From the NCBI GenBank assembly GCA_027366635.1, contig DAHXNE010000012.1, forward strand, positions 1 through 64,000: a DNA stretch of 64,000 bases, given 5' to 3'. Source of the DNA: Gammaproteobacteria bacterium. GTDB lineage: Bacteria > Pseudomonadota > Gammaproteobacteria > Steroidobacterales > Steroidobacteraceae. The position numbers and the translations under genes are program-made. Numbering within the stretch: position 1 is the stretch's first letter; each line of letters starts with the position of its first letter. This document shows, one piece after another, positions 3,394 to 44,624 of this stretch. A model generated the notes under the pieces. That model saw only the letters and a list, made by a program, of their open reading frames with translations, made no database searches and was not told where the DNA came from.

Positions 3394-4263
3394 GTGAGAA
3401 TTTTGTCGTACCTGCTGCCTTGGCAGTTCTCGCCGCTGGCCTGTGCCGTGTTCACGGTCACGCTCGTGCTGTATGTGCGCGGGCTGGTGGTCCTGCGGCG
3501 CAGCGCAGCGCCGGTGGGCCCCTGGCGCCCACTCGTTTTCTTCCTCGGCCTGGCGCTCAACTACGCGGTGCTGCAGACCTATTTCGATTACTTCGCCCAA
3601 CACATGTTCTGGGTTCACCGGCTGCAGCACTTGATCCTGCATCACGTCGGCCCGGCGCTGCTCGTGTTGTCCGCACCGGTATCCGTGCTGCGCGCCGGGC
3701 TGCCCGGGCCCGTATGGCGCGTTCTCAGCGCGAGCTGGGTACGCCGTCCGATCGGCTTGCTCTGGCGTGTGCTGCAGCATGAGCTGCTCGCCCCGGTCCT
3801 GTTCGTCGGACTCATTTACTTCTGGCTCACCCCCTCGGTCCAGTTCCTTGCGATGCTCAGCCAGCGGCTCTATCTGCTGATGAACTGGAGCATATTCATC
3901 GATGGCATTTTATTCTGGTGGATGATCCTGGCGCCTATCGAGGCCCAGGGCGCCGCGGCGGTGCCATACGGGCGCCGGGTCATCGTCCTGACCGCCGTCG
4001 CCCTCCCCCAGATCGTGCTCGGCGCCTACATCACGCTGTGTTCGAGGCCGCTCTACAGCATCTATGCGGTGTGCGGCCGAGCCTGGCACATCAGCCCGAT
4101 GCTCGATCAGCAGCTCGGGGGCCTGCTCACATGGATTCCGGGGGCCATGATGTCGGCGGTAGGCGTGCTGGTGATCCTGCACCACGTACTGCAGGCCGAC
4201 CGGCGCGCCCTGGTCCAGGCGCGCGCCCAAGCCGCCGATCCCCCGGCGGGAGTACCGGCATGA
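3394..4263 (+). CDS. ctaG: Cytochrome c oxidase assembly factor, Caa3-type CtaG family
   Basis: This polytopic membrane protein of about 289 aa has seven hydrophobic segments. It has the family features HMFWVHRLQHLILHHVGPAL (histidine-rich, probable metal contact) and LYLLMNWSIFIDGILFWWM. Caa3-type CtaG proteins help insert copper into haem-copper oxidases. The GTG at 3394 is chosen because it begins MRILSYLLPW directly at the first membrane helix and has GGGG seven bases upstream; an in-frame ATG at 3349 is the alternative. Its stop overlaps the start of the Sco1 gene by ATGA, so the two are translationally coupled. No oxidase subunit genes are within the window. Confidence 0.82.
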   Translation: MRILSYLLPWQFSPLACAVFTVTLVLYVRGLVVLRRSAAPVGPWRPLVFFLGLALNYAVLQTYFDYFAQHMFWVHRLQHLILHHVGPALLVLSAPVSVLRAGLPGPVWRVLSASWVRRPIGLLWRVLQHELLAPVLFVGLIYFWLTPSVQFLAMLSQRLYLLMNWSIFIDGILFWWMILAPIEAQGAAAVPYGRRVIVLTAVALPQIVLGAYITLCSRPLYSIYAVCGRAWHISPMLDQQLGGLLTWIPGAMMSAVGVLVILHHVLQADRRALVQARAQAADPPAGVPA

Positions 4264-4922
4264 ACCGCGCGCGGCTCGCTCGGGGCGGTGCGGCCCTCGG
4301 GATCGTGCTGGCGGTGATCGGCGGGCTGCTTGGCGCGGTCATCGGCTGCACGCAGCGGCAACTGCCCGGCCGCATGACCAACGTCGCCGGGCTGGTCGCG
4401 CCGCTGAAGTTCCATCTGACCGACCAGAACGGCGTACCGGTCAGCGCCGCCAGCTACCGCGGCGATGCGGTGCTGCTTTACTTCGGGTACACGCACTGCA
4501 CCGACGAATGCCCCACCACGCTCGCCACCCTCGCCAATGCCCTGCAGCGTCTGGGCCCGCAGGCAAATCTCGTGCGCGTGCTGTTCGTGACCGTCGACCC
4601 GCGACGCGACACCGAGCCGGTGCTGCGACGCTACGTGAGCGACTTCGGTCCGCAGTTCGTCGGATTGCGGGGCACCACGGCGCAGCTGACCCACATCATC
4701 AAGCGCTATCGGATCACGTACACCTACCAGAAGCCCTACCCGCATGGTGACTACCAGGTCGGTCACAGCAGCGCCGTATTCATCTTCGGTCCCGACGGTC
4801 GGGCACGACTGCTGGCGCAGAGCGGCGCGCCGGCCGGGATCATCGCGGCCGACCTGCGCGGATTGCTGCCGGCGCGCGCCGCGGTCGCTCGCGCGCACGG
4901 CGGCTCGCCAGCGGGCGCCTGA
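4260..4922 (+). CDS. SCO1/SenC/PrrC family copper chaperone lipoprotein
   Basis: This protein of 220 aa binds copper outside the inner membrane and delivers it to the CuA or CuB site of cytochrome oxidase, or acts as a thiol reductase. A lipoprotein signal ends at VIGC (Cys30). The thioredoxin-like domain carries the Sco metal-binding motif GYTHCTDECP with Cys80 and Cys84, and the third ligand His168 in VGHSS. It overlaps ctaG by 4 bp, which supports a joint role in oxidase copper-site assembly. The last 20 residues are alanine-rich and probably disordered. Confidence 0.9.
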   Translation: MNRARLARGGAALGIVLAVIGGLLGAVIGCTQRQLPGRMTNVAGLVAPLKFHLTDQNGVPVSAASYRGDAVLLYFGYTHCTDECPTTLATLANALQRLGPQANLVRVLFVTVDPRRDTEPVLRRYVSDFGPQFVGLRGTTAQLTHIIKRYRITYTYQKPYPHGDYQVGHSSAVFIFGPDGRARLLAQSGAPAGIIAADLRGLLPARAAVARAHGGSPAGA

Positions 4923-38036: not shown

Positions 38037-39338
38037 TCACAGCGCGCCGACCGCGTACGCCAGGCGCAACCGGTCGAGCGCCTCATCGAGCGTCGCGTCG
38101 TCATAGTTACGCTCGGCCTCGGCGCGCAGCGACACGGCCTCGAGCACCCGAGTGTTCGAGGCCAGCCCGACCCGGTACAGCTCGCGCGAGATGCGCAGAT
38201 TCTCGGCAGCCTGCGCCGTGGCCGCCCGCGAGGCCTCGATCCGCGCCCGCGCGGCCGCGAGCTGCAGCCAGGCGGCCCGGACAGCGAGTTCGATCCGCGA
38301 GCGCAGGTCCGCGAGCCGCTGCCGCTCGGCGCGACTACGTGCGCGCAGCGCGTCCGCCTCATTCGCCGCCGCACCGCCGTCGAACAGCTTCCAGGTGAAC
38401 CCCAGGCCAACCATCGAGAAATTCTGATGATTGAGAATCTGGTTGTCGAAGTGTGTATAGCCGCCGAACGCGGCAATGTGCGGCAGGCGGCTCGCATTGA
38501 CGACACGCGCACGGGCGGAGAGCGCCGCAGCGCGCGCGCCGAGCGCCCGCAACTCCTGGCGCGAGTGCAGCGCCCGCGCGAGCAATGCCGCAAGCGGTAC
38601 ACTGTCGATGGCCAACACCGGCAGCCTCGGATCCAGGTGCGGCACCCGGTCGAGCGGGGCGCCAATCAGGCGGTCATAGGCGGCTTCGGCGAGCGCGAGC
38701 GCATTGCTCGCCACGACTTGCTGCTCGCGCGCGTTCGCCAGCGCCACGCGTGCGGCCAGCAGATCATTCTTGGCGACCACCTGGCGGGCGTATTTCGCCT
38801 GTACATCGTGCACATGCGCTGCGAGACTGGTGACGCTTGAGCGCGCCACGCCGAGCGCGCGTTGGGCGCGCAATACCGCCACGTAAGCTGCGGCGACCTC
38901 GAGCTTCACGTCGGCACTCACGGCGCGCTCCGTAGCCGACGCACCCTTCAGACCCGCGCGCGCCGCCTCGATGCCGTTGCGAATCGCCCCGCCGCTGTAC
39001 AGTGGCAGGCGCGCCTGCACCGATGCACTGACGTACTGATCGTTCTTGAAGATCGGTCCGGATCGGAAAGCCGACGCCGGCGTCACCAAGTCCAGCTCCG
39101 GTGTCTGCCCCAAGCGCGTGTAGCTCGCCTGGCTCTCGATGCTCGGCCAGCGACCGTCGCGCGCCGCCCTCGCGCTGGAACGCGCCGCTTGCACGTCATC
39201 GGCTGCCGCGGCAAGCGTCCGGTCGTGTGCCGCCGCCAGACGCCACGCCTGCTCGAGCGTCTGGGCCTGCGCCTGCACCGACAGAGCAACCACGGCACCG
39301 AGCACCGCGGCGGCGAGGCGGCCGTGCAGTGCCTTCAT
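38037..39338 (-). CDS. TolC-family outer-membrane efflux protein (pump 1)
   Basis: A 433-aa outer-membrane channel protein with a signal peptide (cleavage near AQA-QT, residue 26) and two long coiled-coil repeats (about 40-220 and 240-430) of the TolC/CusC type. It completes the tripartite pump encoded upstream on the same strand by the adaptor (42845-43924) and RND permease (39609-42848). Its ATG overlaps the stop of the short SQR-remnant frame by ATGA, so its translation is probably coupled to that frame. Confidence 0.9.
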   Translation of the reverse strand: MKALHGRLAAAVLGAVVALSVQAQAQTLEQAWRLAAAHDRTLAAAADDVQAARSSARAARDGRWPSIESQASYTRLGQTPELDLVTPASAFRSGPIFKNDQYVSASVQARLPLYSGGAIRNGIEAARAGLKGASATERAVSADVKLEVAAAYVAVLRAQRALGVARSSVTSLAAHVHDVQAKYARQVVAKNDLLAARVALANAREQQVVASNALALAEAAYDRLIGAPLDRVPHLDPRLPVLAIDSVPLAALLARALHSRQELRALGARAAALSARARVVNASRLPHIAAFGGYTHFDNQILNHQNFSMVGLGFTWKLFDGGAAANEADALRARSRAERQRLADLRSRIELAVRAAWLQLAAARARIEASRAATAQAAENLRISRELYRVGLASNTRVLEAVSLRAEAERNYDDATLDEALDRLRLAYAVGAL

Positions 39339-39538
39339 GACTGCACGTCCTTCAGTGTGTGAATGCCGAGCGTCTTGAGCATGTAGAGCTCATAGGCGGG
39401 CGTGAACGATCCGCTGCGCACCTTGCGCAGGAAGTATTTCTTGAAGGCGACGCGGTGTACCGCGCCGAAGCGCTCGCGCATCTGGCATGCGCACGGCGCT
39501 CCGCCGAGGCCTGCGCCAATGATGACTACGTGGGCCAT
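39335..39538 (-). pseudogene. Internally deleted sulfide:quinone oxidoreductase, in-frame 67-aa remnant
   Basis: The first 30 residues, MAHVVIIGAGLGGAPCACQM then a short linker, are the N-terminal FAD-binding Rossmann start of sulfide:quinone reductases (GAGLGG). From about residue 31 the sequence jumps to the typical SQR C-terminus, AFKKYFLRKVRSG then YELYMLKTLGI. Full-length SQR has about 400-430 residues, so roughly 350 are missing, with the junction near base 39449. The reading frame is preserved and its stop overlaps the downstream tolC start (ATGA). It cannot bind FAD or quinone as an enzyme. It may survive only to keep tolC translation coupled. The assignment is from sequence pattern. 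Confidence 0.72.
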
Positions 39539-39608
39539 GACAAACCTCTGTGGAAAGACTCAACCACGCGAGTGACTGACCATCCCACCGCGAGGCGGCG
39601 CCCGTCAC

Positions 39609-42600
39609 TCACGGGACGCCCACCGCGTTCGCGCGCGCCGCGCGCGCTTCTTTGCGCTTCAGGTAGACGTAGTAAAGAATGGGAATCACGACGAGCGTCA
39701 GCAGCGTCGAGACGAAGATGCCGAACAGAAGCGAGATCGCCAGTCCGTTGAAGATCGGATCGGAGAGGATAAAGAACGCGCCGAGCATGGCGGCCACCGC
39801 CGTGAGCACAATCGGCTTGGCGCGGGTCGCACCGGCGCGCACTACCGCCTGCTCCAGCGGATAGCCCGCGCGCACCGCACCATCGATGAAATCGACCAGC
39901 AGAATGGAGTTGCGCACGATGATGCCGGCCAGCGCGATCATCCCGATCATCGAGGTCGCCGTGAACTGATCGTGAAGCAGCGCGTGTCCGGGCATCACCC
40001 CGATGATGGTGAGCGGGATCGGCGCCATGATGATGAACGGCACGATATACGATCCGAACTGCGCCACGATCAGCAGATAGATCAGCACCAGCCCCGCGGC
40101 ATAGGCGATCCCCATGTCGCGGAAGGTCTCGTAGGTGACCTGCCATTCACCGCTCCACTTCACCGCGAAGCGGTTCGGATTGGTGGGCGCGCTGATGAAA
40201 CGCTGCTCGAGGGTCTGCCCGGCGACCTTCAGATGGCGCAGCCTCGCGGCGATATCGAACATGCCATACAGCGGGCTGTCGAGCGGACCGGCCATATCCC
40301 CCATCACGTAGGTCACCGGCAAGAGATCCTTCTGATAGATCGCGCCGTCCCAGGTGTTCTTGCGGACCCGCACCAGCTCCGAGAGCGGCACGAGCGCCCC
40401 GTCGGCCGCCCGGACCCGCAGGGCGAGCACCTGACCGATCCTTGCCTGGTCGGCCGGAGAGAGTTCGAGCTTCACCGGAATTAAGTGTCGCTCGCGTCCG
40501 ATGTGAACGTATGTGGCGTCATAGCCGGAGAGCGCCATGGAGAGCGTTCGCGCGATCTGTGCCTGGGACACGCCGAGCAGCGCGGCCTTCTGCCGATCGA
40601 CGGCGACGACCAGGCGCCGGGCCTTCGCGTCGACGGTGTCGTAGGTATCGACGATGTGCGGCGTGCTGTCGAACACCTTGCGGATCTGCAGTGCGAGCCG
40701 CTGCTGTACCGCGTAGCTGGGACCGAAGATCTCCGCGACGATGGGCGCCAGCACCGGCGGTCCCGGTGGCACTTCCACCACCTGGATATCCGCCCCGAAT
40801 CGGCGCGCCACCCGCGCCAGCGCCGGACGCACCGCGCGCGCGATCTGATGACTCTGCACACGACGGTCACTCTTCGGCACCAGCTCCACCGCGATTTCCC
40901 CGTAGCGCGGCCCGCGCCGCAGATAGTACTGACGCACCAGACCGTTGAAGTTCACGGGTGCGTGAGTGCCCGCATAGACTTGATAGTCGCTCACCTGCTT
41001 CACCCGCGCGAGCACTTGCGCCAGCTCGTCGAGGACGTGCGCGGTGGTCTCGACGGTGGTGCCGACCGGCATCTCCACCACCACCTCGAACTCCGACGTG
41101 TTGTCGAAGGGAAGCATCTTGAATACCACCGACTCGGTGAGTACCAGACTCAACGCCGCGAGGATCGCCAGGCCGATGGCCGCGTACAGCCAGCGGCGCC
41201 GCCGACGCCCGCGTGAGCCGGCAAGGAAGGGACCGACCACGCGCTGGAACAGGGGCAGCAGCGGCAGCGGCTGGCGCTGCTCGGTGGGCTTAAGATGACG
41301 GTGGCCGAGCAGCTTGCGACACAGCCATGGCGTGAACATGAGCGCCACGCCGAGCGAGATCAGCATCCCCGAGCTGGCATTGATCGGGATAGGGCTCATG
41401 TAAGGACCCATCATGCCGCCGACGAAGGCCATCGGCAGCAGCGCCGCAATCACCGTGAGCGTGGCGAGAATGGTCGGCCCCCCAACCTCATCGACCGCCA
41501 CCGGGATGATGTCGCTCAGCGTTCCGCCGCCGAGACGCATGTGGCGGTGAACGTTCTCCACCACCACGATCGCATCGTCGACCAAAATGCCGATGGAGAA
41601 GATCAACGCGAACAGCGACACCCGGTTGATGGTGAACCCCCACGCCCAGGAGGCGAACAGCGTCGCCATCAACGTGACGCCGACCGCCGCCCCGACCACG
41701 ACCGCCTCGCGCCGGCCCATGGCGAGCATGACGAGCAGGACGACCGACAACGTGGCCTCGATCAGCTTCTCGATGAGCTTCTTCGCCTTCGCATCGGCGC
41801 TGTGCCCGTAATTGCGGGTAACAGTGACGTGCACGCCCGCGGGAATGTATGTGCCGCGCAGCTGGTCCAGGCGGCGGATCACTCCGGCGGCGACGGTGCC
41901 GGCGTTGGTGCCGGTCTTCTTGGCGATGGCGATGGTCACCGCCGGCGCGTAACTGATTTTCGGCAGGTCGCGCCGGGCGGCGCCCGGCCCGGTGCCGAAC
42001 CACACATAGGAATGCGGCGCATCGGGTTGGAAGGCGACGGCGGCGACATCTGCCAGATACACCGGCCGCCCGGCGTGCATGCCGATCACCAGATTGGCCA
42101 CCGCGGCGCGGTCGGCCAGGAACTGTCCGGCCTGGACCGGCACCACCCGGTTGTCGCCAATGAGCGAGCCGGCCTGCAGCGTCAGATTGGCGGCCTGCAG
42201 CGAGCGCATGATCTGGCCGGCGTCGAGCCCGTAGGCGGCGAGCTTTCCGGGCTCCAGACGCACCCGCACGATGCTGCGCGGCGCGCCGATCGTGTGAACT
42301 CTGCGGGTGCCCGGCACCCGCTGCAGCTGAGTCTCGATGGCGTGCGCCACCTGGCCAAGCCGGTAGGAGCCGCGGTTCGGGTCGTTCGCCCAGAGTGTCA
42401 ACGTCATCATGGGCACGTCCGCGATGCCCATCGGCCGCACCAGCGGCCTCAGGATGCCCGAGTTGGCGGGCCACAGGTCGCGATGCGAGTAGATCGCATT
42501 GTAGAGGCGCACGATGGCGGTGGTACGTGGCTGTCCAACCCGGTATTGGACGGTGACGATGGCGAGCCCCGGCCGTGAGACCGCATAGATGTGCTTGATG

Positions 42601-42848
42601 CCACGGATCTCGCCCAGCACCTGCTCCAGGGGCGTGCTGACCTGCCGCTCCACCTGCTGCGAAGATGCGCCCGGGAACGGCACAAACACGTTGGCGAAGG
42701 TGACATTGATGTCGGGATCTTCCTGTCGCGGCGTGACGGCCAGCGCGAACAGCCCCAGGACCACAGCCACGATCGCGATCAGCGGTGTGATCTGATTGTG
42801 CAGGAAACGCCGGGCGATCCGCCCGCTGACACCGAGCTCCGTGCTCAC
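39609..42848 (-). CDS. RND efflux permease (pump 1)
   Basis: A 1079-aa inner-membrane RND transporter that drives export with the proton gradient. It has the family plan of two repeats, each with one helix, a large periplasmic loop and five more helices. FSIGILVDDAIVVVENV in helix 4 holds the proton-relay aspartates, and AGIIVRNSILLVDFID is the matching helix 10 region. Periplasmic porter domains lie at about 45-330 and 570-870. It starts with GTG overlapping the adaptor stop. The neighbouring DUF2892, SQR remnant and YgaV-like regulator suggest a link to sulfide or persulfide stress rather than the usual drug export, by context only. Confidence 0.93.
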   Translation of the reverse strand: MSTELGVSGRIARRFLHNQITPLIAIVAVVLGLFALAVTPRQEDPDINVTFANVFVPFPGASSQQVERQVSTPLEQVLGEIRGIKHIYAVSRPGLAIVTVQYRVGQPRTTAIVRLYNAIYSHRDLWPANSGILRPLVRPMGIADVPMMTLTLWANDPNRGSYRLGQVAHAIETQLQRVPGTRRVHTIGAPRSIVRVRLEPGKLAAYGLDAGQIMRSLQAANLTLQAGSLIGDNRVVPVQAGQFLADRAAVANLVIGMHAGRPVYLADVAAVAFQPDAPHSYVWFGTGPGAARRDLPKISYAPAVTIAIAKKTGTNAGTVAAGVIRRLDQLRGTYIPAGVHVTVTRNYGHSADAKAKKLIEKLIEATLSVVLLVMLAMGRREAVVVGAAVGVTLMATLFASWAWGFTINRVSLFALIFSIGILVDDAIVVVENVHRHMRLGGGTLSDIIPVAVDEVGGPTILATLTVIAALLPMAFVGGMMGPYMSPIPINASSGMLISLGVALMFTPWLCRKLLGHRHLKPTEQRQPLPLLPLFQRVVGPFLAGSRGRRRRRWLYAAIGLAILAALSLVLTESVVFKMLPFDNTSEFEVVVEMPVGTTVETTAHVLDELAQVLARVKQVSDYQVYAGTHAPVNFNGLVRQYYLRRGPRYGEIAVELVPKSDRRVQSHQIARAVRPALARVARRFGADIQVVEVPPGPPVLAPIVAEIFGPSYAVQQRLALQIRKVFDSTPHIVDTYDTVDAKARRLVVAVDRQKAALLGVSQAQIARTLSMALSGYDATYVHIGRERHLIPVKLELSPADQARIGQVLALRVRAADGALVPLSELVRVRKNTWDGAIYQKDLLPVTYVMGDMAGPLDSPLYGMFDIAARLRHLKVAGQTLEQRFISAPTNPNRFAVKWSGEWQVTYETFRDMGIAYAAGLVLIYLLIVAQFGSYIVPFIIMAPIPLTIIGVMPGHALLHDQFTATSMIGMIALAGIIVRNSILLVDFIDGAVRAGYPLEQAVVRAGATRAKPIVLTAVAAMLGAFFILSDPIFNGLAISLLFGIFVSTLLTLVVIPILYYVYLKRKEARAARANAVGVP

Positions 42849-43924
42849 TGCGCGCTCCCGGTGAGCACCGGGAACGGCTCGAGCCGGCGCATGGCCGCGA
42901 GTGGATTGAGCGCGACCCGTTCGCCGGCGGTCAGTCCCGAGAGAACCTCCACCTGGCCGCCGACCCTGCGGCCGAGTCTGACCTGCTGCAGCAACGTGTT
43001 GCCGTTCGGCTCCACCAGGTACACGGCAGTCACCGCGCTGCGGCGCACGACGACGCTCGCCGGCACGAGCAGCTCGGTACGCCGGCCCGTGGGAAAGCGC
43101 ACGCGCACTACCATGCCCGGGAACAGTCCAGGCACCGGCCGCGGCAATGACACATGCACCGGAAAGGCTGCGGAACCGGCCGCGGCCTGCGGGTATACCG
43201 TGACATGAGCCGCTTCGATCGAGCGACCGTCAAAGCTCACCGCGGCCTGGCCCAGCCGCCTGATCGCTTCGGCAACAGACTGCGGCACGCTCGCCACCAC
43301 GCGCAGATGCGTCAACGACGCCACCCCCATCAGCGGCGTCCCCGGAGAAACCGCCTCGCCCACTTGCACGCTGCGCGCGGTCACCACGCTGGCGTACGGA
43401 GCGCGGATCTCGGTGTAAGCAACCCCCTCGATCGCGGCGGCGAGCGCGGCACGCGCCGCGTTGCGCGCCGCAACCGCGACATCGCGCGCGGCGGTCACCT
43501 GATCGAAGTCCGCTTTGGGAACGACCCGCTGCTGGTACAGGGCTCGGATGCGCCGATAACGCTTGTCGGCTTGCGTGGCCCGCGCCCGGGCCGCATGCAG
43601 CGCCGCGCGCGCCTGGCCCAGATCCGCGCGCTGGATGGTGGCGCGCAGCCGGATCAACAGCGCCCCGGCCGGCACGAAATCATCGACGTCGTGGTAGATC
43701 GCTGCGACCCGCCCGCTGGTCTGGGCGGTCAACGTCGCGCGGTCGACCGCCTGCACGATCCCCTCAAAACTACGTTCGGCAACGCTGCTGCGCGGCTCCA
43801 CGCGCAGCGCGGCGAGCGGCGCTCCCGAGGCGCGCACCGCCGGGGCGTGCCGCGCGGCACATCCGCTCAGTCCCCCGGCCAGCGCGCACGCGCCAACCAG
43901 GGCCCAGCATCCGGCTCGGTGCAC
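42845..43924 (-). CDS. RND periplasmic adaptor lipoprotein (pump 1)
   Basis: A 359-aa membrane fusion protein that joins the RND permease to TolC. The signal peptide ends in the lipobox LSGC (about residue 22), so it is a lipoprotein. Lipoyl half-motifs flank a helical hairpin (about 105-170, with QADKRYRRIRALYQQRVVPKAD split around it). A beta-barrel and membrane-proximal domain follow (LPRPVPGLFPGMVVRVRF and VYLVEPNGNTL). Its stop overlaps the permease GTG start, and the DUF2892 gene is 15 bp upstream. Confidence 0.92.
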   Translation of the reverse strand: MHRAGCWALVGACALAGGLSGCAARHAPAVRASGAPLAALRVEPRSSVAERSFEGIVQAVDRATLTAQTSGRVAAIYHDVDDFVPAGALLIRLRATIQRADLGQARAALHAARARATQADKRYRRIRALYQQRVVPKADFDQVTAARDVAVAARNAARAALAAAIEGVAYTEIRAPYASVVTARSVQVGEAVSPGTPLMGVASLTHLRVVASVPQSVAEAIRRLGQAAVSFDGRSIEAAHVTVYPQAAAGSAAFPVHVSLPRPVPGLFPGMVVRVRFPTGRRTELLVPASVVVRRSAVTAVYLVEPNGNTLLQQVRLGRRVGGQVEVLSGLTAGERVALNPLAAMRRLEPFPVLTGSAQ

Positions 43925-43939: not shown

Positions 43940-44140
43940 TCAGAACGCGGCGCCCGGCTTGACGCCGAGTTGCTTGAGGATGCGCGCGAGCGGGCAGAAA
44001 CCACTGAACGCCGCCTGCACCATGTTCACCCCGATGAGCGCCGGCACCAGCAGCCACCATGCACTGACCAGCCAGGCGAGCAGCACACCGAGCAGCACGA
44101 GGGCGCCTGCAAAGGCGAATACGACCCGATCGATTGTCAT
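43940..44140 (-). CDS. DUF2892 membrane protein (YgaP-like transmembrane domain)
   Basis: A 66-aa protein with two closely spaced membrane helices (FAGALVLLGVLLAWLVSAWW and the next segment). The conserved end GFCPLARILKQLG is the hallmark of DUF2892 and of the membrane part of E. coli YgaP, a sulfurtransferase. It is the first gene of the pump-1 operon, just below the operator and the ArsR-type regulator. In E. coli the regulator YgaV and YgaP are likewise neighbours. No rhodanese domain is attached here. Confidence 0.88.
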   Translation of the reverse strand: MTIDRVVFAFAGALVLLGVLLAWLVSAWWLLVPALIGVNMVQAAFSGFCPLARILKQLGVKPGAAF

Positions 44141-44217: not shown

Positions 44218-44261
44218 AGCAAATGGCAATTTTGGCAGCGGTGGATTACACTGCCCGCATC

Positions 44262-44624
44262 ATGGCAACCAGACGACCAATCCCGCCGAGAAGCGCCAGC
44301 CGGACGGCACGTCCCACCACCCTCGCACGCGTCGTCCGCGACCTGCAGCCGCACTGCCAGCAGGCGGTCGGCGTCCTGCGGGCACTTGCCAACGAGCAGC
44401 GCCTGATGGTCCTGTGTCATTTGGTGCCGGCGCCTCTGTCTGTCGGTCAACTCAATGAGCGCGTACGGCTCAGTCAGTCCGCGCTCTCCCAGCACCTCGC
44501 GGTGCTGCGCACCGCCGGCATGGTGCGCACCGAGCGCCAGGCGCAGACGGTCTATTACTCCCTGGCCCCGGGCATCGTCACGCGGCTGCTGGCCGTGTTG
44601 CACGATGAATTTTGCGGCATCTGA
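44262..44624 (+). CDS. ArsR-family repressor of the YgaV/BigR/SqrR (persulfide-sensing) type
   Basis: A 120-aa winged-helix protein (HTH at about 60-90, LSQSALSQHLAVLRTAGMV). It contains no metal-site motif of ArsR or SmtB. It has two cysteines at the positions of the redox pair of YgaV, BigR and SqrR: Cys52 in LMVLCHL and Cys118 two residues from the C-terminus (DEFCGI). In that family the pair forms a disulfide or tetrasulfide with reactive sulfur, and the repressor leaves DNA. The ATG at 44262 is preferred because the in-frame ATG at 44223 touches the operator. It is divergent from pump 1. Confidence 0.85.
   Translation: MATRRPIPPRSASRTARPTTLARVVRDLQPHCQQAVGVLRALANEQRLMVLCHLVPAPLSVGQLNERVRLSQSALSQHLAVLRTAGMVRTERQAQTVYYSLAPGIVTRLLAVLHDEFCGI

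Follow-up and report, generated by a model that had tools for sequence, protein, structure and literature searches.

Translational coupling by a stop codon that overlaps the next start codon is widespread, and its effect on the loss of genes from operons is seldom visible. In Escherichia coli, reinitiation needs no more than the final 15 nt of the gene upstream, and it is nearly abolished when the two genes are about 20 nt apart (PMC10666635). Strict coupling was found in 13 of the 14 overlapping gene pairs tested (PMC6728339). A literature search on gene remnants kept for coupling found nothing direct. The locus described here lies in a 64,000 nt stretch of a Steroidobacteraceae contig (the window), and combines such an overlap with the remains of a sulfide:quinone oxidoreductase (SQR) gene, in the operon order adaptor, RND permease, SQR stub and tolC. 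A YgaP-like gene lies upstream, and an ArsR-family regulator is divergent:

44223–44624, plus strand: ArsR-family regulator, BigR-related, divergent (NF033788 above cut-off; BigR model E 6.5e-21, below its cut-off)
43940–44140, minus strand: YgaP-like small membrane protein (PF11127)
42845–43924, minus strand: RND periplasmic adaptor (TIGR01730 above cut-off), with a 4-nt overlap with the RND start
39609–42848, minus strand: RND efflux permease, 1079 aa (PF00873)
39539–39608, minus strand: leader of 70 nt from the RND stop to the stub start, equal in length in six aligned genomes
39545–39549, minus strand: AGAGG, Shine-Dalgarno-like sequence of the stub, kept in four of four stubs (as GGAGG in the sister species G004)
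39335–39538, minus strand: SQR stub, a 67-codon in-frame remnant with codons 1–29/30 and about the last 37 of 426
39449–39451, minus strand: deletion junction, GTC, codon 30, from comparison with the sequences of G012 and G011
39348–39353, minus strand: GAAGGA, Shine-Dalgarno-like sequence for tolC, seen within the last codons of the stub
39335–39338, minus strand: ATGA, 4-nt overlap of the stub stop and the tolC start (tolC ATG at 39336–39338)
38037–39338, minus strand: tolC-family outer membrane efflux protein, 433 aa (PF02321)

The enzyme is of the Acidithiobacillus ferrooxidans type (PDB 3sz0 and relatives). The intact gene of a sister species aligns with it over the whole length (E 1e-164), whereas the window keeps only the first 29–30 and about the last 37 residues, and the catalytic region is gone. 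This intact gene, a 426-codon SQR in the genome G012 of the same genus, occupies the operon position of the stub. The stub product, MAHVVIIGAGLGGAPCACQMRERFGAVHRVAFKKYFLRKVRSGSFTPAYELYMLKTLGIHTLKDVQS, matches G012 SQR at both ends, with 72% over residues 1–32 of both proteins and 77% between its C-terminal part and SQR residues 388–426. The sequence-only reading, that the FAD-binding start of SQR is joined directly to its C-terminal segment, is thereby confirmed. The RND stop and the tolC ATG are 270 nt apart in the window, against 1,347 nt in both G012 and G011; therefore, exactly 1,077 nt, or 359 codons, are missing, close to the roughly 350 residues read from the window, and there are no other length changes. 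Alignment with the syntenic full-length genes placed the junction at the GTC of codon 30, with a microhomology of 2–3 nt common to HRV in front and K(V/I)AF at the back. SQR activity was lost in the window lineage through this internal deletion between very short repeats.

The stub retains the dinucleotide-binding motif GxGxxG (GAGLGG, residues 8–13), and only the first 30 residues of the corresponding domain; its Pfam scores are below cut-off. The region holding the three catalytic cysteines (128, 160 and 356 in the A. ferrooxidans numbering) is deleted, while full-length G012 SQR has cysteines at the matching places. The middle of SQR was not found elsewhere in the window's own genome (86.6% complete), and G068 and G072, two further sister species, have only relatives at 27–30% identity, so that a relocation of the middle part was rejected. 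Even chance could produce 67 open codons in sequence as GC-rich as this; it could not make both ends homologous to a single syntenic gene. The same homology rejects an unrelated ancestral short protein, one of the outcomes which had been named as a refutation. With synteny and homology at both ends, a disabling deletion and the loss of purifying selection, the stub is an SQR pseudogene.

Stubs occupy the same operon position in three sister species, with junctions that differ from that of the window; a search for the same deletion in close relatives, as had been suggested, was thus successful for the position and not for the breakpoint. The four stubs (window, G004, G072 and G068) have 67, 88, 88 and 50 codons and three junctions. 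G004 and G072 share a common 88-codon stub, located at:

L044 5603–5869 and L106 7738–8004, plus strand in both: 88-codon stubs of G004 and G072

This stub lost 1,014 nt, and joins the front through VGWR to EKYF, with about 3 nt shared. The 50-codon stub of G068 lost 1,128 nt at an RK repeat with 8 nt shared, where relatives have TGCGCAAG in the front part and it recurs in the back part. Junction homology over the three deletions is therefore 2–8 nt. All three lengths (1,077, 1,014 and 1,128 nt) are multiples of 3, and the ATG, the Shine-Dalgarno sequence, the 70-nt leader and the ATGA were all kept. SQR was lost in four of the five species of the clade, the fifth being G012 with its full-length gene. 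At the other 25 loci of the genus that have this tolC, G012 among them, SQR is either intact or cut by the contig end. No further partial SQRs were found in the loci read in the order, where the genes are full-length or wholly absent.

The species tree was built from RND and tolC, as nucleotides and as proteins. Nucleotides and proteins alike place G012 as sister to G068, with 94–95% support that falls to 70% on third positions, and G004 and G072 form a pair supported at 96–100%. Because the full-length G012 is nested among stubs, a single ancestral deletion was rejected, and the simplest history has three separate losses, which implies three independent SQR deletions in the clade. A common origin of the window and G004/G072 junctions was also rejected, as neither can be derived from the other: in the window stub, VAF is still present in front of KKYF and SQR codons 31–52 are missing, and in G004/G072 it is the reverse. 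Alternatively, G012 could have regained SQR by transfer. The divergence between G012 and G011, with a dS of 1.05 in the SQR ends and 0.85 in tolC, does not suggest this.

Omega was estimated by a small likelihood script on the codons common to the four stubs. The stub gave 0.88, whereas tolC gave 0.18 and RND 0.10 in these four species. The stub value is not different from 1 (2dlnL 0.18), and an omega of 0.2 was rejected (2dlnL 26.5). Pooled over the four stubs, the amino acids evolve neutrally, without the purifying selection that would mark a new small protein. Between G004 and G072, the stub has a dN of 0.159 and a dS of 0.045. Its body differs at 27 of 194 sites, which exceeds the divergence at fourfold sites of tolC and RND (76 of 939), and for this reason it looks unconstrained. 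Between these two stubs, A/T to G/C changes predominate (18 vs. 3), and most changes fall at the first or second position of a codon, a pattern expected once GC-biased substitution is no longer held back by coding constraint. Positive selection, considered for the first- and second-position excess, was rejected because a GC-biased neutral spectrum explains it (third-position deficit P 0.09).

The initiation region (−20 to +15) is slower. Over the four stubs, 6 of 35 sites changed against 75 of 151 elsewhere (p 0.0005), in a test that also spans the period preceding the deletions, in which the enzyme was still under constraint. For the G004/G072 pair, which is wholly post-deletion, the counts are 1 of 35 and 36 of 268 (p 0.10; 0.006–0.22 with other boundaries). 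This points to selection of moderate strength on the start of stub translation.

The overlap of the SQR stop with the tolC start, as ATGA or TGATG, is present in nearly all members of the genus. As read from the window alone, the stub has kept both its frame and the 4-bp overlap, with ATGA at 39335–39338, and it thus has the stop-start overlap, of 4 or 1 nt, expected of a termination-reinitiation pair. Five relatives without SQR were read in the wider order, and in three of them tolC begins directly on the RND stop, with an overlap of 4 or 1 nt. The coupling is not universal, because in G071 the stop of a full-length SQR has no ATG overlap, and in one relative (L124) tolC has its own site after a gap of 80–100 nt. 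In G071 (L101, about 3510–4846), the tolC adjoining the full-length SQR matches in two pieces, and a frameshift, a duplication or an altered coupling is possible at this locus. Independent initiation of tolC in the window is also possible, since tolC keeps the Shine-Dalgarno-like GAAGGA. In predicted mRNA folds, the tolC start and ribosome site were not consistently hidden, and this inconsistent pattern led us to reject occlusion of the site by folding.

The reading that we find most likely, with a probability of about 0.6, is that the stub is a pseudogene kept as a translated leader that feeds tolC by termination-reinitiation. Ribosomes would start at the stub's own Shine-Dalgarno sequence and ATG, read 67 codons, stop at the TGA, and reinitiate on the overlapping tolC ATG. 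We infer from these sequence features both that ribosomes translate the stub and that tolC needs them to do so. Selection would act on the initiation site, the frame and the stop, and leave the amino acids free. After an out-of-frame deletion, translation of the remnant would end away from the overlap, and TolC would be expected to be lower. Selection for tolC translation after enzyme loss, one of two possibilities raised by the sequence-only reading, is thus the best supported, by three in-frame deletions, neutral evolution, a slower start region and a nearly genus-wide overlap. It is not proven, and the frame statistic is weak. At about even odds stands the wider claim that on three parallel occasions an enzyme gene became a translated stub, left with the sole role of delivering ribosomes to the next gene, and that coupling thus dictates which deletions survive in operon reduction.

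Less likely, though well ahead of the other alternatives, is a plain decaying pseudogene, in which the deletions were in frame by luck and the frame has so far escaped a stop; tolC would use its own Shine-Dalgarno sequence, and the stub would be unselected. An omega of about 1 and the GAAGGA kept by tolC agree with this. So does the open frame, which is not improbable in GC-rich sequence: with a neutral spectrum taken from fourfold sites, the probability of a stop is about 0.38, 0.22, 0.30 and 0.19 in the four stub branches, and that of zero stops over all four without selection is about 0.27, because the sequence is GC-rich and the substitution spectrum GC-biased. The chance of three in-frame deletions out of three is 1/27, or 1/9 without the window case, which was left out because it was discovered through its open frame. 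Taken alone, the frame statistics are only suggestive. They nevertheless count against mere decay, as do an 88-codon stub open across a species split and about 31 substitutions, the slower change at the initiation site, and the maintained overlap with tolC.

The other possibility raised from the window, a new small protein with its own function made from the FAD-binding beta-alpha start and the C-terminal segment of the enzyme, is improbable. The open frame, start and binding site are retained in four species, and the stub of the window has diverged somewhat less than the other three. However, amino-acid change is neutral in the C-terminal segment too (omega about 0.9), the stubs of 50, 67 and 88 codons differ in content, dN far exceeds dS between G004 and G072, and the Pfam scores are below cut-off. 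We regard as similarly improbable that the retained ends are untranslated DNA or RNA elements for tolC expression, such as a regulatory leader or an mRNA stability element. The constant leader length and the slower evolution of the 3′ part of the leader would fit, but this slower part coincides with the Shine-Dalgarno sequence and start, RNA structure is not consistent, and such an element would not need a frame. A misassembly of the metagenome contig is the least credible: the window genome is fragmented (127 contigs), but stubs lie at the same place in contigs of three other species, one junction is common to two separately named assemblies, and exact multiples of 3 were lost with intact flanks.

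Overlapping starts seem to make up much of the operon, as the stop of the adaptor gene likewise shares 4 nt (GTGA, 42845–42848) with the RND start. The operon may export a sulfur species, and the divergent regulator, whose cysteines are presumably placed as in the BigR/SqrR persulfide sensors, is possibly its sulfide or persulfide sensor. Within the clade, sister species display the intact gene and three independent in-frame stubs, and further relatives the gene-less state. As all three states are seen, the constraint is testable with a simple reporter. For annotation, the lesson is that a short conserved frame with ATGA at its end can be a stub rather than a new protein. The locus would be a clear natural illustration of a known constraint, and it has parallels in sister species.

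Among described systems, the BigR/SqrR-type sulfide-responsive operons likewise have a divergent BigR-related ArsR-family gene and a YgaP-like membrane gene near SQR. The window operon differs in carrying RND-TolC efflux, in the loss of SQR in most of its clade, and in a regulator that scores below the BigR cut-off. Leader peptides and upstream open reading frames resemble the stub in its proposed role, being translated for the act and not for the product, although no stalling motif was identified in the stub, which originated when an enzyme gene within an operon lost its middle part. Stub and tolC also resemble the 4-nt ATGA termination-reinitiation pairs (Huber et al. 2019, 2023) in the overlap and in the internal Shine-Dalgarno-like motif. 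For those pairs, short upstream 3′ ends were shown to be sufficient in E. coli; in the putative pair of stub and tolC, the upstream partner is a decayed gene without enzyme function.
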